A DNA stretch of 64,000 nucleotides from Nitrospirota bacterium. GTDB lineage: Bacteria > JACPQY01. The notes beneath the pieces were generated by a model, which saw only the letters and a list, made by a program, of their open reading frames with translations, did no database searches and was not told the origin of the DNA. Both the position numbers and the translations under genes were made by a program. The DNA lies in assembly GCA_016180645.1 (NCBI GenBank), contig JACPAV010000021.1, positions 1 to 64,000 of the forward strand. Direction: 5' to 3'. Shown in pieces: positions 48,138 through 60,226 of the stretch; position 1 is the first letter of the stretch, and the number at the start of each line of letters is the position of its first letter.

Positions 48138-48188
48138 TTGACAACACAGCCATAAACTGAATATAGTTCATCACATGAATGATATTCA
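48138..48188 (+). promoter_or_regulatory. Promoter with TetR-type operator at the head of the acyl-CoA operon
   Basis: TTGACA (48138-48143), 18-base spacer, TATAGT (48162-48167). An imperfect palindrome with a three-base centre (48158-48171 and 48175-48188, 12/14 matching arms: TGAATATAGTTCAT / ATGAATGATATTCA) covers the -10, the transcript start (about 48174) and the first ATG. The TetR gene is second in the operon. Confidence 0.6.
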
Positions 48189-49215
48189 TTTCATGGCGGC
48201 GCGGTTCCACGGGGCCGGAAAGCCGCTGACCCTTGACGAGACCCCGCTCGTCGGGGGAGATGGGGTTCTCGTCAAGGTGGAGGCCGCGGGCCTCTGCGGA
48301 ACGGACCTGCATATCGCCGTGGAAGGCACATTCCCCACGGCCTTCGTGCCCATCACGCTCGGTCACGAAATGGCAGGAACCGTGGAGAGTGGGGCGGGTC
48401 GGTTCCCCAAAGGCGAGCGAGTGTGCGTCTATCCCCACGTCCCCTGTTTCACCTGCGAATACTGCCGCCGCGGCCGGGAGGCGTTGTGCCGGGGATCGAA
48501 AATCTTCGGCGTGCACGCCGACGGAGGCTTTGCCCAGTACGTTCGTGCGCCCGAGTCGTGCCTCTTCCGATTGCCGGCGGGCGTTCCGTTCGAAATCGGC
48601 GCGGCGTTGACGGACGCCGTAGCCACGGCGTTCCACGCCGTCCGCCGCCGCGCGGAGGTCAAACCGGGCGAACGCGCCGCGGTCTTCGGATGCGGCGCGT
48701 TGGGCACGTTTGCGGTCAAGATTCTGAAGGCGCTGGGCGTCTCGAGTGTGATCGGAGTGGACGTTTCGCCGCATGCTCTCGAACGCGCGCGCAAGGCAGG
48801 CGCCACGGCTGCGATCAATGTTCGCGATGAGGATGCCGCGAAGGAGATCAAGAAAATGACGGATGGGGGCGTGGACGCCGCGTTCGAATTCGTGGGCCGA
48901 TCATCGAGCGTCCGTGAAGCCGTCCGCTCCGTGAGGCCGGGCGGGAGGGTTGTCGTCGTGGGAATCGGCCCGGAGCCGGTCGAGTTGGTCCCGCTCCGCA
49001 CGTTTGTAGGGAATGAAATAACGGTGATGGGATCGATGGGTCTGGACCGGATGGACCTCGAAGAGGTCATCCGGTGGGCCTCGGACGGGGGGCTCGATTT
49101 GAGGGGCGACATTGAGGTCCGTCCTCTCGGCGAGATCAACGACGTGCTGCGCGAGGCGGCATCGGGAGATCGCCGCGCCGCCAAGTTCGTTCTGAGGCCG
49201 TGGCCATGGGAGTGA
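48175..49215 (+). CDS. Zinc-dependent medium-chain alcohol dehydrogenase
   Basis: 346 aa from ATG 48175; ATG 48193 (MAARFHGAG) is an alternative. Catalytic zinc ligands lie in GLCGTDLH and LGHEMAG; the structural zinc site is CFTCEYCRRGREALC (C-x2-C-x2-C-x7-C). The Rossmann motif is FGCGALGTFAVKIL, and DVSPHAL suggests NAD(H). It should oxidise or reduce a hydroxyl or carbonyl in the pathway encoded downstream, perhaps a hydroxyacyl-CoA or a free alcohol. Its 3' end overlaps the TetR start. Confidence 0.88.
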   Translation: MNDIHFMAARFHGAGKPLTLDETPLVGGDGVLVKVEAAGLCGTDLHIAVEGTFPTAFVPITLGHEMAGTVESGAGRFPKGERVCVYPHVPCFTCEYCRRGREALCRGSKIFGVHADGGFAQYVRAPESCLFRLPAGVPFEIGAALTDAVATAFHAVRRRAEVKPGERAAVFGCGALGTFAVKILKALGVSSVIGVDVSPHALERARKAGATAAINVRDEDAAKEIKKMTDGGVDAAFEFVGRSSSVREAVRSVRPGGRVVVVGIGPEPVELVPLRTFVGNEITVMGSMGLDRMDLEEVIRWASDGGLDLRGDIEVRPLGEINDVLREAASGDRRAAKFVLRPWPWE

Positions 49216-49844
49216 GGGAGCGGAAAGACCGCGAGAAGGAGGCGCGGCGAAAGGTGATCCTGGAGGCCGCGACCCGCATCTTTTCGCAGAAGGGGTTTGC
49301 GGCGACCACGATGGAAGACGTCGCCGATCGGGCCGAACTCTCGGTCGGCACTCTCTATCTGTATTTCCGGAGCAAGGAGGAGATCTATCTTTCCATGATT
49401 CTCGACGCGATGGATGTGTTTCACGAAGGACTCGTCCGAATTGCGGAGTCGCGCCGGGGTCCGGCGGAGAAACGGCGCGCCGTGTGGGAGCTTTTCATTC
49501 GATTCCGGGAGGAGCACCCGATGTACTACAAGGCCCTGCTCTACCTGCACGACGCGGACTTTACACGGTACCTGTCTCCGGCCGTAAGGAGCGCCGTCCT
49601 GGATCGCTCCGGCAGGAATTTTTCTCTCGGCGCCCGGATCCTCTCACCCCGTGGGAAGGAGTCGAGGCCGTCGAAGAGGGCCATCGACCTCATGTGGGCG
49701 GCCTTCCTGGGTCTCGTCTATATACAAGACTCCCGCGCAAACCTCTCCGAATCCTTCGACCCGGCGAGAAGTCGGTCGTTCCTGTTGGGCGCGTTTGAGT
49801 TCCTGGAGAATGGTCTGGCGGCGCGTTCGGGCGGGGCAGGTTGA
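49206..49844 (+). CDS. TetR family regulator
   Basis: 212 aa from ATG 49206. N-terminal TetR HTH (ILEAATRIFSQKGFAATTMEDVADRAELSVGTLYLYFRSKEEIY) and a helical ligand domain. It lies inside the acyl-CoA operon, overlapping both neighbours, and most likely represses from the palindrome at 48158-48188. An acyl-CoA intermediate is the probable inducer, as for FadR/PaaR-type TetR proteins (inference). Confidence 0.88.
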   Translation: MGVRERKDREKEARRKVILEAATRIFSQKGFAATTMEDVADRAELSVGTLYLYFRSKEEIYLSMILDAMDVFHEGLVRIAESRRGPAEKRRAVWELFIRFREEHPMYYKALLYLHDADFTRYLSPAVRSAVLDRSGRNFSLGARILSPRGKESRPSKRAIDLMWAAFLGLVYIQDSRANLSESFDPARSRSFLLGAFEFLENGLAARSGGAG

Positions 49845-50989
49845 TGTTTGTTGCGGGGGTCGGCCGGACGGCTTACGGGCGCGACGAGCGCTCCATGGCC
49901 GAGATGGTCTATGCGGCGGTCGGCACCGCGCTGGCCGACGCCGGGATGGATCGGGACGACATCGACACCATCGTTACCGCCTCGATCGACCTGTTCGACG
50001 GCAAGGTGGCTTCGAGCGTGTCGATCACGGAATCGGTCGGGGCCGTAATGAAGGAAGAGGCGCGGATCTCGGACGACGGAGCCGCGGCCCTTTTCCACGC
50101 CGCGACCATGATCCTCTCCGGCCGCAAGAGAAACGTGCTGGTCGTGGCGCACTGCAAGAACTCGGAGTCGGATGCGGATGAGATCACGAAGTGGACCTTC
50201 GACCCCAACTTCCAGCAGCCGCTCGGCTTGAACGACTCCCAGGCCGCGGCTCTCCAGGCTTCGGTGTGGATAGCGGCGGGGGGAAGCGAAGAGGAGATGG
50301 ACCGCGTTGCGGCTGTGCGCGGAGGAGTGGCCGTGGACCATGTTCGGAAATCTCCGTGGCTGGTTGAACCCCTCCGAGCGGCACATCGGGCTCCGATCGT
50401 GGACGGCTCCTGCGCCGTCGTCCTTACGAGCCACGACTCACGACCTCCAGGATGGGGGAAGTGCCGCGAGAGGACAGGAGTCCGGAGCAGCCGAGCCACG
50501 AGTCACGTTCGCGTTGCCGGCCTTGGCCTGTGTGTTGAACCACACTACCTGGGAGACCGGGATCTGGTCGGATGTCCCGCGGCAAAGAAGGCTGCTGAGC
50601 GGGCGTTCCGGATGGCGGGGTGGAAACCGGCGGACGTTGAGCGGGCCGAGATTTCCGCGCCCTTCGCGCATCAGGAGATCCTTTGGGCTGCGGCGTTCGG
50701 ACTGGCGCTGGATCCACCCCCACCTCAATCCTCCCCCGTCAAGGGGAAGGATAAGGAAGCTTTTCGCTCCCCCCTGGAGGGGGAGGGTGCGGGTGGGGGG
50801 GGGCGTGCGGTCGTGAACCCAACCGGCGGCTGGTTCGCGGGCAATCCCTACGTCGTCTCCGGTTTGGAGCGTGTGATCTGTGCCGTAGAGTCTGTTCGAC
50901 TCGGCCGGGCGAAAAAGGCCCTCGCCCATGGCTGCTGGGGTCCCGCGGGCCAGGGCCAGTGCGTGGTATTGCTGGAGGCCTCGCCATGA
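49844..50989 (+). CDS. Thiolase-fold protein I, lacking the catalytic Cys and His, with in-frame insertions
   Basis: 381 aa; ATG 49844 overlaps the TetR stop (TGATG). The thiolase fold is clear (VGRTAYGR...AEMVYAAVGTALADAGM, IVDGSCAVVLTS, VNPTGGWFAGNPYVVSGLERV, GCWGPAGQGQ). The nucleophile position (RISDDGAAA) has no Cys, and the GHP motif is GNP. It belongs to the SCP-x/Ltp-like thiolases that pair with DUF35 proteins, and probably forms a complex with thiolase II and the DUF35 protein. Two low-complexity insertions (around residues 197-222 and 290-322) match palindromic or repeat DNA and are absent from the pattern expected of the family. Confidence 0.8.
   Translation: MFVAGVGRTAYGRDERSMAEMVYAAVGTALADAGMDRDDIDTIVTASIDLFDGKVASSVSITESVGAVMKEEARISDDGAAALFHAATMILSGRKRNVLVVAHCKNSESDADEITKWTFDPNFQQPLGLNDSQAAALQASVWIAAGGSEEEMDRVAAVRGGVAVDHVRKSPWLVEPLRAAHRAPIVDGSCAVVLTSHDSRPPGWGKCRERTGVRSSRATSHVRVAGLGLCVEPHYLGDRDLVGCPAAKKAAERAFRMAGWKPADVERAEISAPFAHQEILWAAAFGLALDPPPPQSSPVKGKDKEAFRSPLEGEGAGGGGRAVVNPTGGWFAGNPYVVSGLERVICAVESVRLGRAKKALAHGCWGPAGQGQCVVLLEASP
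50427..50508. repeat. Repeat insertion 1 inside thiolase I, in frame
   Basis: Two 17-mers differing at two bases, CGAGCCACGACTCACGA (50427-50443) and CGAGCCACGAGTCACGT (50492-50508), flank a filler encoding RPPGWGKCRERTGV. The CGAGCCACGA core is also in the RCC1 gene at 4731-4755 (inverse). Confidence 0.55.
50715..50803. repeat. Palindromic insertion 2 inside thiolase I, in frame
   Basis: Outer arms CACCCCCACC / GGTGCGGGTGGGGG enclose two hairpins: ATCCTCCCC...GGGGAAGGAT and CTCCCCC-CTGGA-GGGGGAG. It encodes PPPPQSSPVKGKDKE...LEGEGAGGGG between two conserved thiolase segments. Double hairpins within outer arms mimic REPIN layout. Confidence 0.6.
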
Positions 50990-51038
50990 GCCGGGTGGCC
51001 CTCTACGCTACGCTCCAAGGACGGCGAGTGGAATTGCT

Positions 51039-52202
51039 ATGGTGACCCGCGCCGCGATTGTGGCCACCGGCCAGACGGACCACGCGAAGGCAAGGGATGA
51101 CGTGAGCCAGCCCGAGCTGATCTACGAGGCCGTCACGCGGGCGCTGACAGACGGGGAGCTTCGGCCTGCCGACATCGAGGCGGTCATTCTCGCCAACATG
51201 GAGATGTTCGAGGGAAGGATGCTGCCGGATCTGTGGTGCGCGGAGGCGGCGACGGCCGCGCTCAAACCGTGCGTCAAGATTGCGACCGGCGGCACATCGG
51301 GAACGTCCGCCGTCATCGCCGGCTTCCACCAGGTCGCCTCGGGTCTTTTTGACACGGTCCTGGTCGTTGGCTGGGAGAAACATTCCGAAGGCCACACGCA
51401 GGCCGGTATGTCCATGACGGACCCCTTGTGGGACCGGTACGTGGCCGGAGGAGCGCTCAACAACTTTGCCCTTTCGATCTCCCAATACATGCGAACGCGC
51501 GGCGTCACGCGGGAGGCGGCTGCGCGGGTGGCCGTGAAGGCCCGACATAACGCAGCGCTCAACCCCCACGCGCATCTCAAGATGCCCGACCTCACGTTCG
51601 AGCAGGTCATGGAATCGAGAGTTCTCGCGGAGCCGGTTCGGCTGCTCGACATGTGTCCACAGTCGGACGGCGCCTGTGCGGTCGTCTTCGCGGCCGAAGG
51701 CCGGGCGGAAACAATCTGTCCGAGACCCGCCTGGGTTCACGCCGTGGCGACCCGGCACGACAAGCCGTATCTCGGCGATCACGGCGACCGCCTTTCCACC
51801 ATGCGCACCCTTCGCGCCGCGGCGCGCGAAGTCTACCAAGAGCTGGATATCCGCGAACCCCTCAAGGAATTCGACGTTGCCGAAATCTACGAACCGGTCA
51901 CTTATGCCGAACTCGCGTGGTACGAGGCCCTGGGTTTCTGCCGTGAGGGTGAGGCGTCCCGCCTGATCGAAGACGGCGTGACCGAAATGGGCGGAGAGTT
52001 GCCCGTGAATCCTTCCGGCGGCGTGCTCTCCACGAATCCTGTGGGCGCCTCCGGCGTGATCCGGGCGGCGGAGGCGGCTCTGCAAATCCACGGCAAAGGC
52101 GGCAAGCGCCAAGTTCCCGACGTTCACCTCGCGCTCGTGACGGGCTATGGAGTCTATTCGTGGTCCGATGTCATGGTCCTAGGATCGGATAGGCCCCACT
52201 AA
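51039..52202 (+). CDS. Thiolase-fold protein II, lacking catalytic Cys and His
   Basis: 387 aa from ATG 51039; the longer open frame starts inside thiolase I. Fold markers: ATGQTDHAKARDDVSQPELIYEAV, IATGGTSGTSAVIAGFHQVASGLFDTVLVVGWEK, DGACAVVFAAEG, NPSGGVLSTNPVGASGVIRAAEAALQ. The nucleophile position lies in TGGTSG, without Cys; GHP is TNP; the C-terminal Cys loop is GYGVYSWSD. Thus all three classical thiolase residues are changed. With thiolase I and DUF35 it may carry out retro-aldol or another C-C cleavage, as Ltp2-ChsH2 does in steroid degradation; that comparison is inference. Confidence 0.82.
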   Translation: MVTRAAIVATGQTDHAKARDDVSQPELIYEAVTRALTDGELRPADIEAVILANMEMFEGRMLPDLWCAEAATAALKPCVKIATGGTSGTSAVIAGFHQVASGLFDTVLVVGWEKHSEGHTQAGMSMTDPLWDRYVAGGALNNFALSISQYMRTRGVTREAAARVAVKARHNAALNPHAHLKMPDLTFEQVMESRVLAEPVRLLDMCPQSDGACAVVFAAEGRAETICPRPAWVHAVATRHDKPYLGDHGDRLSTMRTLRAAAREVYQELDIREPLKEFDVAEIYEPVTYAELAWYEALGFCREGEASRLIEDGVTEMGGELPVNPSGGVLSTNPVGASGVIRAAEAALQIHGKGGKRQVPDVHLALVTGYGVYSWSDVMVLGSDRPH

Positions 52203-52206
52203 GCCT

Positions 52207-53091
52207 ATGAGGATTCAGCACACGATGGACCTGGCTTGGGAGATCGCGCCCGGGGAAATCTTCGCCGCCTTTCACGCTTACCTAGCCGAAGGCAAGATCG
52301 CGGCGACCCGATGTCCATCCTGCAACCAGGTTTACCTCCCGCCGCGCGCCGTTTGCGGGGATTGCTACCTCCCGCTTCGGGATTGGGTGGAAGTGGGCGG
52401 CTCCGGGATCGTCGAGGCCCTGACGATTTCGCACCATCCGATTCTGGACACGGTGACCGGGAAAATGAGGGCCACGCCGTATGTCAGCCTTCTTGTCAAG
52501 CTGGACGGAGCATCAACATCCGTGAACCACTACCTGGACGCCGATTCCCGCGCCGCCGTCATCGGTGCGCGCGTGGACGCGGTCTGGCGGGAACCCCGGC
52601 GGACAATGGCGGATCTCATCGGCTTCGGGATAGCACGTGGAGTTGCCGTAGAAGTGTTTCCGCGTCCGCTTCCTCCAAGGAGCGTCGCGCCTCCTCCCCG
52701 TGCGCCGGTCAGGCTCGACATCCCTTTCTCCTACGCGGCCGGAAGGGGCGCCTCGTGGTTCTTTGAAGGTTTCAAGCGTGGGGAGATCCTCGGAAGCCGG
52801 TGCCCATCTTGCGATCGGATACGCGTGCCGTCCCGCTCCTTTTGCCCGGCCTGTTTTTACACGTTGGGAGAGTCGGATCTGCGGCCGGTCGGCCCCCACG
52901 GAACCATTGTGGCGACAGCCGGCCCTCCCTCGCAGAGGCTCGGCCTCATCCGAATGGATGGAGCGGACAACGACTTGCTCCACAAGGTGGAGGCCGCACG
53001 GGGCGACCGCGTGAAGGCGCGCTTCCTTCCCGCGGACCGGTGCCGAGGAGATATCCGGGACATCGAATGCTTCGAACGGACGGGGCCATGA
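52207..53091 (+). CDS. Tandem DUF35 (zinc ribbon + OB-fold) protein
   Basis: 294 aa with two copies of the DUF35 module. Copy 1 (about 15-150): AFHAYLAEGKIAATRCPSCNQVYLPPRAVCGDCY. Copy 2 (about 180-290): FEGFKRGEILGSRCPSCDRIRVPSRSFCPACFY. Both hold C-x2-C...C-x2-C zinc ribbons followed by an OB-fold. In the family a single module pairs with one thiolase-like partner and shapes its CoA site. Here two modules match two thiolase-like proteins, suggesting a 1:1:1 assembly. Confidence 0.87.
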   Translation: MRIQHTMDLAWEIAPGEIFAAFHAYLAEGKIAATRCPSCNQVYLPPRAVCGDCYLPLRDWVEVGGSGIVEALTISHHPILDTVTGKMRATPYVSLLVKLDGASTSVNHYLDADSRAAVIGARVDAVWREPRRTMADLIGFGIARGVAVEVFPRPLPPRSVAPPPRAPVRLDIPFSYAAGRGASWFFEGFKRGEILGSRCPSCDRIRVPSRSFCPACFYTLGESDLRPVGPHGTIVATAGPPSQRLGLIRMDGADNDLLHKVEAARGDRVKARFLPADRCRGDIRDIECFERTGP

Positions 53092-53885
53092 GCGCGACGG
53101 TGCTCTTCGAGAGAAGGGATCATGCCGCAGTGTTGACTCTGAACCGGCCGGAAGCCATGAATGCCATGAATGTCGAGATGCGGGTTGAGCTGAACCGCCG
53201 TTGGGCCGAGTTTCGCGACGATCCTGAACTGTGGGTGGCTGTTGTTACGGGGGCGGGGGAGAAGGCTTTTTGCGCCGGCGCCGATCTGAAGGAGTTGGGC
53301 GGGTTCTACAAGTCTACGACACCGGCAGAACGCCGTGCGCGGTGGGAGGTGGAACCCGGCATCGGCGGCATCACGCATAATCTGGACATCTGGAAACCGA
53401 TCATCGCGGCGGTCAACGGTCACTGCCTGGCCGGGGGGATCGAGCTGGCCCTCGCCTGCGATATCCGCATCGCGTCTGAAAACGCCACCTTCGGCCTGAC
53501 TGAAGTGCAGTGGGGGATCATTCCCGGCGCCGGCGGCACGCAACGACTGCCGCGGCTCATTCCGTTCGGCCGGGCACTCGAAATGCTCATCACCGCGGAA
53601 AAGATCGACGCGGCCGAAGCCGGGCGGATCGGCCTCGTGAATCGCATCGTCCCGCAGGATGAACTCATGCCGACCGCCCTGGCGATGGCGGAGCGCATCT
53701 GCCGGAACGGGCCGCTCGCGGTGCGCTTGGTGAAGGAAGCCGCTTGCAGGGGCATGGACAGGCCGCTTGCCGAGGGCTTGCGGCTGGAGCAGCTCCTGGC
53801 CGAGTACGCAAGGCAGAGTGAGGATGCCCAGGAGGGGCCGAAGGCGTTTGCGGAGAAGAGGCAGCCTGCGTTCAAGGGAAGGTAA
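53088..53885 (+). CDS. Enoyl-CoA hydratase, crotonase family (1)
   Basis: 265 aa from ATG 53088, overlapping the DUF35 stop (ATGA). Oxyanion-hole motifs FCAGADLKEL and GHCLAGGIELALACD, then TEVQWGIIPGAGGTQRL. Both glutamates needed for hydration in classical crotonases are present (GGIEL and LTEVQ), so a true hydratase is likely, adding water to a 2-enoyl-CoA. It ends in KRQPAFKGR, typical of the family. Confidence 0.9.
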   Translation: MSATVLFERRDHAAVLTLNRPEAMNAMNVEMRVELNRRWAEFRDDPELWVAVVTGAGEKAFCAGADLKELGGFYKSTTPAERRARWEVEPGIGGITHNLDIWKPIIAAVNGHCLAGGIELALACDIRIASENATFGLTEVQWGIIPGAGGTQRLPRLIPFGRALEMLITAEKIDAAEAGRIGLVNRIVPQDELMPTALAMAERICRNGPLAVRLVKEAACRGMDRPLAEGLRLEQLLAEYARQSEDAQEGPKAFAEKRQPAFKGR

Positions 53886-53886
53886 A

Positions 53887-54792
53887 GTGGACGAACGATT
53901 TAGAACTCAGGACCTTCCCGACAAAGTGGTGGTTGTCTGCGCGCTCACGGGGGCACAGCAGGGCAAGGAGGCCAATCCAAACCTGCCCGAGCAGCCGGAT
54001 GAAATTATTGCCCAGGCCCTGGATGCCTGGCGCGCAGGCGCATCGGTTGTCCACATCCACGCGCGGGGCACGAATGGAAAAGCGACGTCAGACCCGGGTA
54101 TCTTCCGTCGCATCGTCGATGGAATCCGCGGGAAATCCGACCTCGTGATTAATTGCACAACCGGCGGAGCCGTGGCGGGGCTGCCGCTGGAGGATCGCAT
54201 CAAGGTGGTGCCGGAACTGAAGCCGGAGATCGCTTCCTTTTCCGTGGGGGGCGGTTCGCTCCTCGGGCGTTATGATTCGAAGGCCGGACGGTGGACTCGG
54301 GATCAGCTGGTCACGCTGTTCCGCTCTTATTCGGAAATGGAGAGGGCCGCACTTCTGTTCCGGGAACACGGGACAAAGCCTGAACTCGAAGTGTACGACA
54401 GCGGTTTCCTCAACAACATCTGGACGCTTCGGGAGGCGGGATGGCTTGAAGAGCCGCTTCTCGTCAACTTCGTGATGGGCATCAGCGGCGAGTGCACGCC
54501 GTGGACGCCGCGCAACCTGATGTTTCTAGCGGACAACCTCCCGCCCGGGTCCCACTGGCTGGTTTCCGCCATCGGAGCGCGGGTGCATTTCAGGAGCGTT
54601 GCGTTCTGCGCGGCCCTCGGAGGACACGTCCGGGTGGGGATGGAAGACAACGTTTACATCGGGAGGGGTGAACCGGCGACGTCCAACGCGCAGATCGTGG
54701 AGAAGGCCGTCCGAATCTGCCGTGAGATCGGCCGCGAGCCGGCAACGCCGGCAGAGGCACGATCCCTCCTCGGCCTGAAAGGCGGCTTCTGA
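53887..54792 (+). CDS. Beta-keto acid cleavage enzyme (BKACE, DUF849)
   Basis: 301 aa from GTG 53887. BKACE markers: VHIHARG (zinc His residues), INCTTGG, ASFSVGGGSLLGR, EVYDSGFLNN, and VGMEDN (zinc Glu). In the family a 3-keto acid reacts with acetyl-CoA to give acetoacetate and a new acyl-CoA. In this operon it could link a free beta-keto acid to the CoA pathway without a ligase. Its stop overlaps the next ATG (TGATG). Confidence 0.9.
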   Translation: MDERFRTQDLPDKVVVVCALTGAQQGKEANPNLPEQPDEIIAQALDAWRAGASVVHIHARGTNGKATSDPGIFRRIVDGIRGKSDLVINCTTGGAVAGLPLEDRIKVVPELKPEIASFSVGGGSLLGRYDSKAGRWTRDQLVTLFRSYSEMERAALLFREHGTKPELEVYDSGFLNNIWTLREAGWLEEPLLVNFVMGISGECTPWTPRNLMFLADNLPPGSHWLVSAIGARVHFRSVAFCAALGGHVRVGMEDNVYIGRGEPATSNAQIVEKAVRICREIGREPATPAEARSLLGLKGGF

Positions 54793-55976
54793 TGGCCGGC
54801 ACCTCGCCCTACTTCAACGAACAGCACGGGCAATTCCGCGCCGTCGTGCGCCGCTTTGTGGAGGAGGAAATGCGTCCCCACTGGCAAGAGTACGAAAAGC
54901 TGGAGACCCAGCCGGATGGACCGTACAGGCAAACGTTTCGGGACGTGTTTGCGCGCGCCGCCAAGCTGGGGCTCTTGGGAATTCGCGTCCCTCCGCCATA
55001 CGGGGGCACGGGACTCGATTTCCGGTACACCACGGTTCTTTGCGAAGAGTTGGTGCGCTCACTTGCGTTCGGCATGTGCGTCTCCATGCTGGCCCATGCG
55101 GAATTCGCCCTTTCGGCCATCGCGGGGGAAGGAACCCAGGCGCAGAAAGAGCGCTATCTGCCGGACGCCGTTCAAGGGAAAACAATATGGGGTCTGGGCA
55201 TTACGGAGCCCGACTTTGGATCCGACGTGGCCGGCATCCGGACGACGGCACGGAGAAAGGGAGACCGCTACATCATCAGCGGCTCCAAGACCTTTATCAC
55301 AAACGGTTCTATCGCGGACTACATCACGCTTGCGGTTCGAACGAGCGGCGCCGGAAAAGGCGGGCTGAGTCTCGTGATCGTCCCCACGAACACGAAAGGA
55401 TTCTCGGTCGGTAAGCGGTTGGAAAAAATCGGCGCGAAATCGTCCGACACCGCCCTCCTTTTCTTCGAGGACTGTGAAGTCCCGGTCGACAACCTCATCG
55501 GCGAAGAAGGGAAAGGTTTCTACTACATCATGGACCATTTCCAGGGGGAGCGCCTCGTCCTGGCATCCTTTGCCAACGGTCTGATGCAGGTTCTGTGGGA
55601 GGAAGCCCTCCGATATGGCGGAGAGAGAAAGGTGTTCGGGCGGCCGGTCCTGGACTTCCAAGTCTGGAAGCACCGGCTGGCCGATGTGCTGACAAAGATC
55701 GAAGCGTCCCGTCAACTCACCTATTGGGCTTGCGACCAACTGGTTCGGACGGGCCGCGCCCAGAAGGAAATCTCTATGGCCAAGCTGTTCGCCACGGAGA
55801 CCGTTAGGGATGTTGCCATGGAGGCGCTGCAAATCCACGGGGGCAACGCCGTCATGGCGGAGTACCCGGTGGGTCGCCTCATGACCGAATGCATGGGGAT
55901 GACAATTGGCGCGGGCACGAGCGAGATCATGCGAGAGATTATCTGGCGCGAGGTGACGCGCGAGGGACGGTTTTGA
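54792..55976 (+). CDS. Acyl-CoA dehydrogenase 1 (isovaleryl/long-chain-type active site)
   Basis: 394 aa. FAD and substrate motifs WGLGITEPDFGSDVAGI, FITNGSIADYITLAVRT, ERKVFGRPVLDFQ, LQIHGGNAVMAEYPVGRLM. The common catalytic Glu (YEGTSE) is Ala here (IGAGTSEI), while helix G carries FQGERLVLA. That is the arrangement of isovaleryl-CoA and long-chain dehydrogenases, whose base is the helix-G Glu. Branched or bulky acyl-CoA is therefore the likelier substrate. Confidence 0.92.
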   Translation: MAGTSPYFNEQHGQFRAVVRRFVEEEMRPHWQEYEKLETQPDGPYRQTFRDVFARAAKLGLLGIRVPPPYGGTGLDFRYTTVLCEELVRSLAFGMCVSMLAHAEFALSAIAGEGTQAQKERYLPDAVQGKTIWGLGITEPDFGSDVAGIRTTARRKGDRYIISGSKTFITNGSIADYITLAVRTSGAGKGGLSLVIVPTNTKGFSVGKRLEKIGAKSSDTALLFFEDCEVPVDNLIGEEGKGFYYIMDHFQGERLVLASFANGLMQVLWEEALRYGGERKVFGRPVLDFQVWKHRLADVLTKIEASRQLTYWACDQLVRTGRAQKEISMAKLFATETVRDVAMEALQIHGGNAVMAEYPVGRLMTECMGMTIGAGTSEIMREIIWREVTREGRF

Positions 55977-56641
55977 CCTCGGGCGCGTTTTTCGACGTGG
56001 ATGGCACCATCGTGCGGGGAAACCTCGCGTTGGCCGGTGCACTGGATTGGGTGAGACGAGGACGGATACGGCCCCTTGATTTCGCGCGCGGCGCCGCATG
56101 GTTCTGGGGCAACTATTTGGCCGGTCGCATGAACTATGGGGATCTTACGCGGGTCGGCTTCTATATCCTGGCAGGCCAGTCGGCCCAGTCGATACAAGAT
56201 GATGCAACGGACATTCTCGACCGGAGAATGCGGAAAAGGATCTACCCGCGAGCGCTTGAATGCATGCAGGAACATCGCAACGCGGGCCGACGGCTGGTGA
56301 TTGCCTCGTCCGCACCGGCTCCCATGGTACGCGCTCTTGCCGCGTGCGTAGGGATTGATGACACCCTGGTCACGGAGCTGGAAACCCTCGACGGGATTCT
56401 GACGGGGCAGGTGGTCGGCGACCTGTGCTACGGGGAGGGTAAGCGAAAGCGGGTCCAGGCTTTCGCCGAGCGTCATGGCCTGTCACTCTCCGACAGTTTC
56501 GCCTATGCGGACGGCTACACCGACATTCCATTCTTATCGTCCGTAGGCCACCCGGTGGCCGTAAATCCCGACCGGAGGCTCAAGCGTGAGGCGGTCAAAC
56601 GAGCGTGGCCTATCGTTCGATATGAGAAGGAGGGAGTATGA
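55973..56641 (+). CDS. HAD-IB family phosphatase-like hydrolase
   Basis: 222 aa from TTG 55973, which overlaps the previous stop (TTGA); no ATG fits. HAD motif I FFDVDGTIVRG, motif II LVIASSAPAPM, motif III Lys region GKRKR, motif IV DGYTDIPFL. The family removes phosphate from small molecules (SerB/CicA type). Its role inside a beta-oxidation operon is unclear; housecleaning of a phosphorylated or CoA-derived intermediate is a guess. Confidence 0.85.
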   Translation: MTSGAFFDVDGTIVRGNLALAGALDWVRRGRIRPLDFARGAAWFWGNYLAGRMNYGDLTRVGFYILAGQSAQSIQDDATDILDRRMRKRIYPRALECMQEHRNAGRRLVIASSAPAPMVRALAACVGIDDTLVTELETLDGILTGQVVGDLCYGEGKRKRVQAFAERHGLSLSDSFAYADGYTDIPFLSSVGHPVAVNPDRRLKREAVKRAWPIVRYEKEGV

Positions 56642-57426
56642 GCAAGACAACGGACGCGGTCCTACTGACGACCGATGGGGCGGTGGCCACGCTGACGCTA
56701 AACCGGCCGGATCGGATGAACTCGATCGATGTGGCCACGCTGGATCTCTTGTGCGAACGCTTGAGAGAGGCCGGGCGGTGCGGTGTCCGTGTGCTCGTCG
56801 TGACGGGGGCGGGAAATCTTTTCTCGGCGGGCGCCGATGGGTCTGAAATGGTGCCCCGCTCCTCCCGAGAGTGGGAGGCCCTCGTCGATCACTACCTCGA
56901 CCCGATCCGGCTCATTTCGGAACTTCCGATTCCCGTCGTGGCGAGAATCAACGGTGATTGCGTCGGCGGGGCCATGGGAATCGCCCTTTCGTGCGATTTC
57001 CGGATCGCGGTCGGCACGGCCCGTTTCGCCGCGCCGTTCGTGAAAATCGGCCTGGCGGGTTGCGACATGAGCTGCGGCTATTTTCTTCCTCGGATCATCG
57101 GATTGGGGCGGGCGACGGACCTGATGATGACGGGGCGCTATGTGGACGCGCCGGAGGCCGAGCGTATCGGCTTGATCCACCGAGCCGTCGAACCGAGGGA
57201 ACTCGATGCCGTGACGGATGAACTCGTCAAGAAACTGGCGTCCGGCCCTCCCATCGCATTGAACTTTACCAAGAAGGCGATCCGGCGTTCCCTCGACCGC
57301 AATATGGCCGCCGAGTTCGACTACGAAATCCTCGCGCAAGTCCAATGCCTCCAGACGGACGACCACCGTGAAGGGGTGCGGGCATTTTTCAAAGAGAAGC
57401 GCGCTCCGAAGTACGTCGGGACATAG
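56638..57426 (+). CDS. Enoyl-CoA hydratase/isomerase, crotonase family (2)
   Basis: 262 aa; the ATG overlaps the HAD stop (ATGA). Oxyanion-hole motifs FSAGADGSEM and GDCVGGAMGIALSCD are present. The two hydratase glutamates are replaced (GGAMG; APFVKIGLAGCDMSCGYFLPR). An Asp in GCDMSCG lies where isomerase-type crotonases carry a catalytic acid, so double-bond shifting or C-C chemistry is more likely than hydration. Confidence 0.88.
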   Translation: MSKTTDAVLLTTDGAVATLTLNRPDRMNSIDVATLDLLCERLREAGRCGVRVLVVTGAGNLFSAGADGSEMVPRSSREWEALVDHYLDPIRLISELPIPVVARINGDCVGGAMGIALSCDFRIAVGTARFAAPFVKIGLAGCDMSCGYFLPRIIGLGRATDLMMTGRYVDAPEAERIGLIHRAVEPRELDAVTDELVKKLASGPPIALNFTKKAIRRSLDRNMAAEFDYEILAQVQCLQTDDHREGVRAFFKEKRAPKYVGT

Positions 57427-57436
57427 GAGCGGGTGC

Positions 57437-58576
57437 GTGGATCTTGACCTGACCGAGGAACAAAGGATTTTCCGCGACCGCTTCCGGGAGTTCGCCCGTG
57501 GCGAGATCGAGGCCATCGCGAAGGAGTGCGATGAGAAGGGCGAGTTTCCGAAGGGACTCTTCCGAAAAATGGGGGCACTCGGCTATCTCGGCATTCCGTT
57601 CCCCCCTGACGTTGGGGGTGCGGGACTGGACCTCGTTACGTTCGCCCTTTCCGCCGAGGAACTGGGTCGCGCATCGGCCGGAATCGCCGTGGGGATCTAC
57701 GTCCACGTGGCCCTGGCGCTGAGCGCGGTCCACACCTTCGGCACGAAGGAGCAGAAAGAGAAATACCTCACGCCCGGTATTTGCGGCGAAAAAGTCGGGG
57801 CCTGGGGGTTTGCGGAGCCTGCCGGCGGGTCCGACCCCTCGTCTTTCAGCACGGTGGCTGAACGGGGTCCGAACGGTTGGCGATTGAACGGATCAAAAGT
57901 GTTTATCTCGAATGGAACCTTCGCCGATTTCGTGGTCGTCACCGCGAAAACAGCCCCGGAAAAGGCGCTTCAGGGAATGAGCCTTCTGATTCTCGAAAAG
58001 GGAACGCCGGGATTTACCGCCCGGCGCATTCCGGTCATGGGCGTACGGGCGACCGAATCGGCTGAGTTGAACTTTCAGGACTGCGTCTTGGGGGCCGATG
58101 CCCTCCTGGGAAAAGAGAACGAAGGCTTCCTGCAAGCGATGAAAACGCTGACGCTGGGCCGGATCATGGCCGCCGCGTTTGCCTGCGGCCTGGCAAGGGC
58201 CGCGCTGGAAGCAAGCCTGAAATTTGCCGGTGAACGGAAGGCGTTCGGACAAACGATCGGAGCGTTTCAAGGCAATCAGTGGACGCTGGCCGATATGGCG
58301 ACGCGTCTCGATGCCTCATGGCTGCTCACGCTTCGGGCCGCGCGGCTGGCCGACGCGGGGCGACCTCACATCAGGGAAGCGTCGATGGCCAAGCTCTACG
58401 CCTCGGAAACGGCCACGTGGATCTGCGAGCGGGCCGTCCAGATCCACGGGGCCTACGGAATGGCGATGGACTTTCCCGTCCAGCGCTACTACCGGGACTG
58501 CAAGCTTCTTGAGATCGGCGAGGGGACCAGTGAGATCCAGCGCAACACGATCGCGCGGCAGTTGGGATTCAAGTAG
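57437..58576 (+). CDS. Acyl-CoA dehydrogenase 2 (classical EGTSE active site)
   Basis: 379 aa from GTG 57437 with a GGAGC ribosome site; an upstream in-frame ATG overlaps the previous gene. Motifs WGFAEPAGGSDPSSFS, FISNGTFADFVVVTA, ERKAFGQTIGAFQ, VQIHGAYGMAMDFPVQRYYRD. The catalytic Glu is in IGEGTSEIQ, the short/medium-chain type. It thus differs in mechanism class from dehydrogenase 1 and should act on another intermediate. Confidence 0.92.
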   Translation: MDLDLTEEQRIFRDRFREFARGEIEAIAKECDEKGEFPKGLFRKMGALGYLGIPFPPDVGGAGLDLVTFALSAEELGRASAGIAVGIYVHVALALSAVHTFGTKEQKEKYLTPGICGEKVGAWGFAEPAGGSDPSSFSTVAERGPNGWRLNGSKVFISNGTFADFVVVTAKTAPEKALQGMSLLILEKGTPGFTARRIPVMGVRATESAELNFQDCVLGADALLGKENEGFLQAMKTLTLGRIMAAAFACGLARAALEASLKFAGERKAFGQTIGAFQGNQWTLADMATRLDASWLLTLRAARLADAGRPHIREASMAKLYASETATWICERAVQIHGAYGMAMDFPVQRYYRDCKLLEIGEGTSEIQRNTIARQLGFK

Positions 58577-58590
58577 GGAGGAGAGGCACC

Positions 58591-59367
58591 ATGGCTTATG
58601 AAAAGATCACGCTCTCCATCGAACCGCCCAAGGCGACGATCGCGATGAACGACCCCGCCGTCATGAACGCGCACAGCACGCCGATGCTGATGGAGATTCA
58701 GGACGCGGTGCGGAAGATCGAGGCGGACGAGCGCGTCATCGTGGGCGTCATCGAGGGCGCGGGCGGCCATTTCTGCGCCGGGATCAACCTCAATGAAACG
58801 CACGACATGACCGCTCTCGAGGGGCGAAAGCTCGCGCGCCTTTTGCACGAGACGTTTTCGCTCGTCCGCACGACGGACAAGCTCTACATCGCCAAGATCC
58901 GAGGGAACTGTCTGGGAGCGGGACTTGAACTGGCCGTATCGTGCGATCTGTTGATCGGCACGGAGACGTCGAAATACGGCTTCCCGCACATGAAGATCGG
59001 GATTCCGTCCATCGTCGAGGCGGGCATCGTGCCGCAGATGATCGGAATCACCCGCGCGCGGGAACTCTACTATCTGGCGAAATCGTGGGACGGAAAGCGG
59101 GCGCACGAGGAGGGCCTCATCAACCGCGTCGTACCGGATCGGGATCTGGACGCCGCCGCGGACGAGTGGGTGGAAACCCTGAGCGGCTACAGTCCGGTGG
59201 CGATGGCCGTTCAGAAGGACATCTGTCACAAGTGGATGACGGCCGACCTCGAGACGGCCATCGATTTTTCCATCAACTCCGTCTGCATCAGTTTCACATC
59301 CGAGGACCAGAAAGAGGGAATGAGGGCGTTTCTTGAAAAAAGGAAGCCGGTTTTCAAAGGACGATGA
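58591..59367 (+). CDS. Enoyl-CoA hydratase/isomerase, crotonase family (3)
   Basis: 258 aa, with GGGAGGAGAG upstream of ATG 58591. Oxyanion-hole motifs FCAGINLNET and GNCLGAGLELAVSCD; the second acidic region is MKIGIPSIVEAGIVPQMIG. One Glu of the hydratase pair is kept (GLEL); the other is displaced to PSIVEAG, as in ring-opening or isomerase subgroups. It ends in KRKPVFKGR. Confidence 0.88.
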   Translation: MAYEKITLSIEPPKATIAMNDPAVMNAHSTPMLMEIQDAVRKIEADERVIVGVIEGAGGHFCAGINLNETHDMTALEGRKLARLLHETFSLVRTTDKLYIAKIRGNCLGAGLELAVSCDLLIGTETSKYGFPHMKIGIPSIVEAGIVPQMIGITRARELYYLAKSWDGKRAHEEGLINRVVPDRDLDAAADEWVETLSGYSPVAMAVQKDICHKWMTADLETAIDFSINSVCISFTSEDQKEGMRAFLEKRKPVFKGR

Positions 59368-59377
59368 GGAGGAGATC

Positions 59378-60226
59378 ATGAGTCAAACCGTCGGCGCGAT
59401 CGACGCATGGGGATCGTGGATCGGTCCCGAAGGCGCAAAAAAGTGGCCGCAAGAATACGTCCACATTTTCAAGAAGTACCGCTCCCCGGAAGTCATTCTC
59501 AAAGGCATGACGACGGAGCAGATGATCGAGGACATGGACCGCGCGGGCGTGGATCGCTGTGTCCTGTCCGCTTTCTACCACAAGGACCTTGCGGTCGTGT
59601 CCAACGAAGAAGTCGCGGCCGCCGTGAAGAAACATCCCAAGCGGTTTGTGGGGTCAGGTACGGTCAATGTCTTGCGCAGGCCAATGGATGTTGCCCGCGA
59701 GGTCGAACGGCTTGTCCGGGAACTCGGCATGAAGGCGATCCGCCTTGAGCCGTACATGTACGGCGACGGCACGACGGGCCTCGCGCCGAACGACAAGCAC
59801 TACTGGCCCGTTTACGTGAAGTGCGTGGAACTCGACGTTCCGGTCTGCATTCAGGTCGGCCATACGGGTCCGCTTCTCCCTTCCGAGGCGGGCCGGCCGA
59901 TCTACCTGGATGAAGTGGCGCTGGCCTTTCCCGAACTCGTGATCCTGGGCTGCCACCTCGGCCAGCCGTGGCACGAGGAGATGATGATCCTGGCGTGGAA
60001 ACACCCGAACGTGTATGTGGAGACTTCAGCCCGTACCCCGAAACATTGGCCCAAGGAGTTCATCCAGTTCGCGGGCGGTTGGGGACAGGACAAGGTCATC
60101 TGGGCGACGGACTACCCACTGCTTCCCTTCGACCGCACCCTGCGCGAGGTGGATGAACTCGGCCTGACACCCGACGTGAAGCGGAAAATCGTACGCGAGA
60201 ACGCCCTCCGGGCCTTCAGGCTGTGA
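59378..60226 (+). CDS. Amidohydrolase-2 family protein without the N-terminal HxH metal motif
   Basis: 282 aa from ATG 59378, preceded by a strong GAGGAGGAG site. The fold resembles ACMSD-type amidohydrolases: MIEDMDRAGVDRCVLSAF, KRFVGSGTVNV, IRLEPYMYGDG, VPVCIQVGHTGP, LGCHLGQPWHEEM, VIWATDYPLLPFD, RENALRAF. The usual DxHxH at the N-terminus reads DAWGS, so the metal site must be altered. Members decarboxylate or hydrolyse C-C/C-N bonds. Last gene of the operon. Confidence 0.82.
   Translation: MSQTVGAIDAWGSWIGPEGAKKWPQEYVHIFKKYRSPEVILKGMTTEQMIEDMDRAGVDRCVLSAFYHKDLAVVSNEEVAAAVKKHPKRFVGSGTVNVLRRPMDVAREVERLVRELGMKAIRLEPYMYGDGTTGLAPNDKHYWPVYVKCVELDVPVCIQVGHTGPLLPSEAGRPIYLDEVALAFPELVILGCHLGQPWHEEMMILAWKHPNVYVETSARTPKHWPKEFIQFAGGWGQDKVIWATDYPLLPFDRTLREVDELGLTPDVKRKIVRENALRAFRL

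Follow-up and report, generated by a model that had tools for sequence, protein, structure and literature searches.

The 64,000-nucleotide stretch of a Nitrospirota genome analyzed here (contig JACPAV010000021.1, positions 1 to 64,000; from now on the window) carries on its forward strand three adjacent genes that encode two thiolase-fold proteins without a nucleophilic cysteine, ThlI (type I, Ltp4-like; 49844..50989, 381 aa) and ThlII (type II, Ltp3-like; 51042..52202, 386 aa, with the ATG at 51042 as the most likely start), and a protein of two DUF35 (zinc ribbon plus OB fold) modules (52207..53091, 294 aa; all gene ends include the stop codon). In our view this trio probably forms a heteromeric C–C lyase of the Ltp3-Ltp4 kind, in which ThlII would be the catalytic subunit, ThlI its partner and the two DUF35 modules their caps. 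The original prediction, made from the letters of the window without database searches, had placed the three proteins at 49844-53091 and had suggested a C–C cleaving complex acting by retro-aldol or other chemistry; the coordinates and reading frames were confirmed. From the sequences a retro-aldol reaction indeed appears to be the best supported reading, because the type II proteins lack the Cys, possess an invariant Tyr at the slot of the catalytic Tyr of Ltp2 and Sal and are related to Ltp3-Ltp4 at the level of the clade, but only ThlII looks catalytic.

Results and Discussion

ThlI and ThlII were aligned with their relatives and with other thiolases from the genome to which the window belongs (G000, 4.7 Mb in 65 contigs), from its sister genome G001 (the public metagenome-assembled genome 'Nitrospirae bacterium NC_groundwater_665') and from plasmid records, the phylum being represented by two genomes in the searched set. 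Eight comparison thiolases of the same C-terminal family show an ACASG- or NCSTG-like nucleophile motif, HDCF or an HDAT-like motif and GHP, whereas the corresponding motifs are ISDDGAAA, SAPF and GNP in ThlI and TGGTSG, YEPV and TNP in ThlII. Near the old nucleophile the type I register may be off by two or three residues, and in either register no Cys is found close to this position in ThlI of the window. Thus, both proteins lack the nucleophilic Cys and the GHP His as had been predicted, and since the HDCF-type His is missing as well, classical thiolysis by ThlI or ThlII is not expected on the basis of the alignment. An identity as classical thiolase was therefore rejected, and the pairing of nucleophilic Cys and GHP His that goes with SCP2-type thiolases, BbsB and archaeal acetoacetyl-CoA thiolase was found in neither protein. 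The lack of a C-terminal Cys in ThlII, which had also been pointed out, is real but uninformative, because Cys-type DUF35-associated thiolases lack one too. The C-terminal Cys of ThlI itself, located in AHGCWGP, is retained in just three of 41 type I proteins and was rejected as a functional feature.

All of the 41 type II proteins possess Gly at the nucleophile position, Tyr in the HDCF slot and Asn in place of the GHP His, and Gly84, Tyr283, Asn332, Gln348 and Gly370 (ThlII numbering) are invariant among them. The matching positions vary in type I, where the Tyr slot is taken by Ser (15), His (10) and Tyr (5) among other residues and Asn stands at the GHP His position in 24/41. ThlII is 85% identical between the two Nitrospirota genomes and ranks among the better-conserved proteins of the operon, and the type I protein diverges faster (68% for ThlI). 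As the altered set is invariant in type II and the matching positions vary in type I, we propose ThlII as the catalytic subunit: the altered site of ThlII is conserved, and ThlI gives the impression of a partner in which it has been lost. It could also be argued that neither protein is catalytic and that both serve as carriers or scaffolds, presenting acyl-CoA to the dehydrogenases and crotonases encoded next to them, since the site of ThlI is degenerate, ThlI tolerates an inserted repeat and the families bear names like lipid-transfer protein or thiolase-domain protein. However, these names are annotation only, and the five invariant residues of type II together with the good conservation of ThlII within the operon make such a role very unlikely. 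The inserted repeat is a palindromic sequence of ~95 bp (50712-50806) that sits at about residues 290-321 of thlI without disturbing the reading frame; it has about 30 partial matches across the genome and is absent from thlI of G001.

The Tyr in the HDCF slot of ThlII occupies the position of the catalytic base of two known aldolases, Tyr294 in Ltp2 (YDHF) and Tyr302 in Sal (YDCY), and Sal also shows a Gly instead of the nucleophilic Cys. With no nucleophilic Cys and a Tyr in this slot, ThlII carries both features by which membership in the Ltp2/Sal group can be recognized. The Ltp2-ChsH2 complex (6ok1) resembles the trio of the window in its thiolase fold, the missing Cys, the Tyr and a DUF35 partner, but it contains one kind of thiolase-fold subunit, its DUF35 is fused to a hydratase domain and Ltp2 is located on a separate branch of the tree. 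Sal-Shy from Comamonas testosteroni shares with ThlII the Gly at the nucleophile, the Tyr in the same slot and the DUF35 partner, and its dimer is flanked by two DUF35 domains as we propose for the trio, but it is a homodimer of one Sal. Neither general acid is found in ThlII, as Pro333 stands at the position of Ltp2 Tyr344 (read from the Ltp2-like rows of the alignment) and Pro285 at that of the catalytic Cys304 of Sal. Judged by these residues, the design of ThlII is related to that of the Ltp2/Sal aldolases but not identical with it.

By sequence ThlII is a plain thiolase relative and ThlI gives weak matches to solved thiolases. The AlphaFold model of ThlI, built from six alignment rows, reached a pLDDT of 65 and a pTM of 0.70, and when it was compared with the PDB using Foldseek the top list consisted of thiolases and their relatives, all with a probability of 1.00 and including Ltp2-ChsH2(DUF35) 6ok1.

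When 386 genomes were searched with the ThlI alignment, strong type I matches came from about 20 genomes of about 17 families. Thirty-five regions from this search were analyzed together with those of the window and of G001 and with the plasmid loci; once one contig-end fragment had been removed, 42 loci with an adjacent type I/II pair were left, most of them from about 17 bacterial families. On plasmids the two DUF35 modules of the trio are fused in one protein in Tsukamurella, Streptomyces clavuligerus, Nocardia farcinica and Nonomuraea and encoded by two separate genes in Cupriavidus. With the operon conserved in a related genome and the trio recurring in about 17 families, the pattern cannot be put down to chance. 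Each of the two types makes up one group in a 35-protein tree (branches 99/95 for type I and 95/92 for type II). In a larger tree of 93 proteins type I lies on one side of a branch (92/94); the type II members of three divergent pairs (L119, L120 and L122) are placed next to Cys-type thiolases, so that two changes are required for type II. With r 0.76, a value reached in none of 2,000 permutations, the distances within the two types are correlated (r 0.72 when 30 non-redundant loci are used); as shared species history adds to this correlation, it supports a joint inheritance but does not prove contact. Type I and type II are separate groups that have diverged together. An Asp beside the old nucleophile (Asp78), present in 40 of 41 type I proteins, would suit ThlI and ThlII as separate homodimers with their own active sites and substrates and only the operon in common. 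Against this stand the adjacency of both genes in 42 loci, their correlated divergence and the two DUF35 modules found nearly always per pair, and we regard separate homodimers as highly improbable.

The original prediction of a downstream protein with exactly two DUF35 modules was borne out by Pfam and by an own-built profile: both zinc ribbons match PF12172 and the OB fold of module 1 matches PF01796, and our profile gives two full modules, the OB fold of module 2 lying below the Pfam threshold. The Cys4 ribbons consist of C36/C39/C50/C53 and C199/C202/C213/C216, and all eight Cys are kept in G001. We then counted the modules located within 3 kb of an adjacent pair on the same strand, at loci picked by similarity to ThlI and not by DUF35. 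Exactly two modules, in a fused protein or in two genes, are present at 37 of the 42 paired loci, or at 36 once the Simplicispira locus L035 is set aside, whose second module is that of an adjacent Ltp2-like gene; a single module is seen at three other loci and none at two, with L092 and L109 ending at a contig edge. As a control, 15 solitary thiolase loci from G000 and G001 showed no DUF35 module in eleven cases, one module in four and two in none (Fisher p ~2e-9 for two modules at paired versus solitary loci, which are not independent of each other). Furthermore, a single open reading frame of 787 residues (L122:8787-11147) fuses a type II protein with two DUF35 modules. The counts across loci and the natural fusions thus strongly support the predicted ratio, and one DUF35 module per thiolase subunit would be their simplest reading. 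As the tree of the modules does not separate into two clean classes (11 label changes, shuffled mean 24), we make no claim on which module binds which subunit. Neither module of the L122 fusion has kept its zinc Cys, and at L034, L037, L038 and L103-L106, which represent the type I/II group holding the actinobacterial plasmid loci, one or both modules are kept without their zinc-binding Cys. The Simplicispira plasmid shows two kinds of Cys-less thiolase together, as the type I/II pair is adjoined there by an Ltp2-like gene (YDHF, AYIHG) and a DUF35 gene belonging to it (L035:9140-10770).

Inert partners have been described before, namely PhlA in PhlABC, in which Gly replaces the Cys, and the hydratase domain of ChsH2 beside ChsH1. 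PhlABC, like the trio of the window, combines two different thiolase-superfamily subunits, one of them inert (in the window, the role proposed for ThlI), with DUF35, but has a catalytic Cys in PhlC and one DUF35 per pair. This architecture would fit a multicomponent enzyme of the acyltransferase or Claisen type, with PhlABC and the archaeal thiolase/HMG-CoA synthase/DUF35 complex as models, and ThlII does match PhlC and archaeal thiolase sequences while the ThlI model fits both folds. Since the known enzymes of this kind need the catalytic Cys, which is missing at the nucleophile of type I and type II, and since PhlABC has one DUF35 per pair and not two, we consider such an activity unlikely. 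BbsAB, the benzoylsuccinyl-CoA thiolase, is another DUF35-associated thiolase fold but a true thiolase, and was rejected as an identity because the window proteins reach 39-138 bits, far below its cut-off of 750 bits.

The closest relative of the trio is Ltp3-Ltp4, whose genes in mycobacteria and their relatives are part of the cholesterol regulon and are used in steroid biotechnology. Ltp4 corresponds to Rv3522 and Ltp3 to Rv3523, with Rv3521 and the F420-dependent Rv3520c adjoining them. A review describes Ltp3-Ltp4 as a heteromeric aldol-lyase that acts on C24-branched sterols, cleaving the branch once carboxylation and hydration have taken place, and further papers repeat this role from the same genetic study; Ltp3-Ltp4 does not appear in a 2025 study on Sal and Ltp2. 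The best NCBIfam matches of the window pair, NF005924 for ThlI (155 bits, cut-off 419) and NF006180 for ThlII (398 bits, cut-off 514), are both below the cut-off, which is exceeded for both families by the pairs from Tsukamurella and Streptomyces. Actinobacterial relatives also show the gene order Rv3521-Ltp4-Ltp3, and the Nocardia locus contains the same set as Rv3520c-Rv3523, with an F420-type oxidoreductase recognized by eye. As no named Ltp3 or Ltp4 sequence was part of the comparison tree, the identity of the actinobacterial members rests on subfamily and gene order; in both trees, the window subunits group with their type I and type II proteins. From this placement the window trio is a deep relative of Ltp3-Ltp4 that lies outside the cut-offs of those subfamilies. 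The analogy to Ltp2-ChsH2 drawn in the original prediction therefore named what is probably the right kind of enzyme, an aldolase, but not the closest relative, which is Ltp3-Ltp4 with Rv3521.

Like the window, the Ltp3-Ltp4 system consists of adjacent Cys-less type I and type II genes together with a DUF35 protein, Rv3521, which we take to have two modules, and falls into the same tree groups. The order differs, being ThlI-ThlII-DUF35 in the window and DUF35-ThlI-ThlII in the Ltp3-Ltp4 system, and both zinc ribbons are intact in the window whereas most of the actinobacterial modules examined have lost zinc Cys. Also unlike the Ltp3-Ltp4 system, the trio lies next to a beta-keto acid cleavage enzyme (BKACE), and no steroid genes are present in the operon. 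Rieske matches in G000 and G001 are almost all short frames of 115-182 aa with no clear ring-hydroxylating oxygenase among them, and a sterol pathway in this organism was rejected as no supporting genes were seen.

Several points weigh against a lyase of the Ltp3-Ltp4 kind. ThlII has neither of the general acids of Ltp2 and Sal, and the AlphaFold model of the DUF35 protein is too poor for use (pLDDT 33). In the literature surveyed, no activity or complex is reported for any type I/II pair, and the assignment of Ltp3-Ltp4 rests on genetics. Moreover, deletion of ltp3 or ltp4 in M. neoaurum left the conversion of phytosterol to 4-HBC intact, so that any role they have must lie elsewhere in the pathway.

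For the lyase that we favour, the following course of events can be proposed. ThlII would bind a β-hydroxyacyl-CoA, most likely a tertiary alcohol, from which no 3-ketoacyl-CoA can be made by oxidation, and Tyr283 would accept the proton from the β-hydroxyl. The C(α)–C(β) bond would then be broken by a retro-aldol reaction without added CoA, releasing acetyl-CoA or propionyl-CoA and a ketone or β-keto acid. As the acids of Ltp2 and Sal are both absent, several candidates are left for the proton donor, namely Asn332, water or a residue of ThlI or of the DUF35 protein. ThlI, its own site being degenerate, would serve as a partner of thiolase fold and give the dimer and the pocket their shape, and each thiolase subunit would be capped by one DUF35 module, which might explain why the modules occur in twos.

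The genes downstream are in line with such a reaction. Crotonase 1 (53088..53885), an enoyl-CoA hydratase family protein, is a candidate for the hydratase feeding the aldolase and is followed by BKACE (53884..54792; PF05853 with 293.6 bits, cut-off 24.8) and acyl-CoA dehydrogenase 1 (54792..55976), which is of the long-chain acyl-CoA/isovaleryl-CoA dehydrogenase type as its best solved relatives include long-chain and isovaleryl-CoA dehydrogenases. Two mechanistically different acyl-CoA dehydrogenases had been predicted, and rightly so: number 1 has GAGT at the usual catalytic Glu, which moves the base to another helix in dehydrogenases of this type, and number 2 (57437..58576) retains the Glu in GEGT. 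A dehydrogenase of the former type and a crotonase would desaturate and hydrate a β-branched acyl-CoA to a tertiary alcohol, and as this alcohol is not oxidisable to a ketone a retro-aldolase would be called for. With a carboxylate on the branch, which has been proposed for the C24-branched sterols, the product would be a β-keto acid, the substrate type of BKACE, which could consume it with acetyl-CoA. This link to BKACE is supported by another BKACE near the type I/II pair of genome G186 (L089) and by a second BKACE that adjoins an acyl-CoA carboxylase subunit in both Nitrospirota genomes (L126 on G000 contig 3, 9760-12223; G001 contig 71, 45895-48320). In this groundwater bacterium the substrate, which probably derives from a branched acid unrelated to sterols, is perhaps a β-branched acyl-CoA. 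The same chemistry might run forward in vivo and join acetyl-CoA with a ketone to a tertiary β-hydroxyacyl-CoA for biosynthesis or ketone assimilation, because it is reversible and the residues set no direction; but the surrounding acyl-CoA dehydrogenases, crotonases and BKACE look catabolic and the known relatives are catabolic, making this direction quite unlikely.

The other genes of the operon are encoded on the same strand. It starts with a PaaI-type thioesterase (named by eye), and a zinc alcohol dehydrogenase family protein (48175..49215) and a TetR-type regulator (49200..49844, assigned by eye and kept in G001) are located upstream of ThlI, the regulator directly. Between acyl-CoA dehydrogenase 1 and crotonase 2 (56638..57426) a HAD phosphatase was named by eye, and acyl-CoA dehydrogenase 2 is followed by crotonase 3 (58591..59367), which like crotonase 2 was identified by family matches, and by an Amidohydro_2 family protein (59378..60226), whose closest solved relative is the uncharacterised 3irs. 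G001 shows the identical gene order between the zinc dehydrogenase and the Amidohydro_2 protein, and a CoA-transferase-family gene lies there directly downstream of the operon on the opposite strand (L124:393-2393); in the genome of the window, genes of this family are present on another contig. Crotonase 2 is 95% identical to its G001 counterpart with a synonymous divergence (dS) of 0.28, compared to 1.3-2.3 for most other genes of the operon, and the HAD gene upstream of it is by eye also very similar to the G001 version, which suggests a recent recombination or transfer of the stretch 55900-57426.

Conclusion

In summary, the gene set in the window can be described as a deep branch of an existing but barely characterised kind of enzyme, for which a retro-aldol reaction is likely. 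More tentatively, the combination of type I, type II and two DUF35 modules could define an ancient and broadly distributed class of heteromeric lyases for acyl-CoAs, with the branch in the window trimming β-branches from non-sterol acyl-CoAs and handing the β-keto acid so formed to BKACE; with the same reserve, it might represent a third site design of the thiolase superfamily (Gly-Tyr-Asn, an inert partner and two DUF35 caps), of which the sterol members would be one branch. Ltp3-Ltp4 has been characterised by genetics alone in the literature surveyed, and our comparison provides a candidate active site (Tyr283, Asn332 and Gly84 of ThlII) and also predicts how the two thiolase subunits share the work and a ratio of one DUF35 module to each of them. 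The trio is widespread in bacteria that are far from sterol degraders, and if our reading is true many annotations as 'acetyl-CoA acetyltransferase' and 'lipid-transfer protein' would be wrong.

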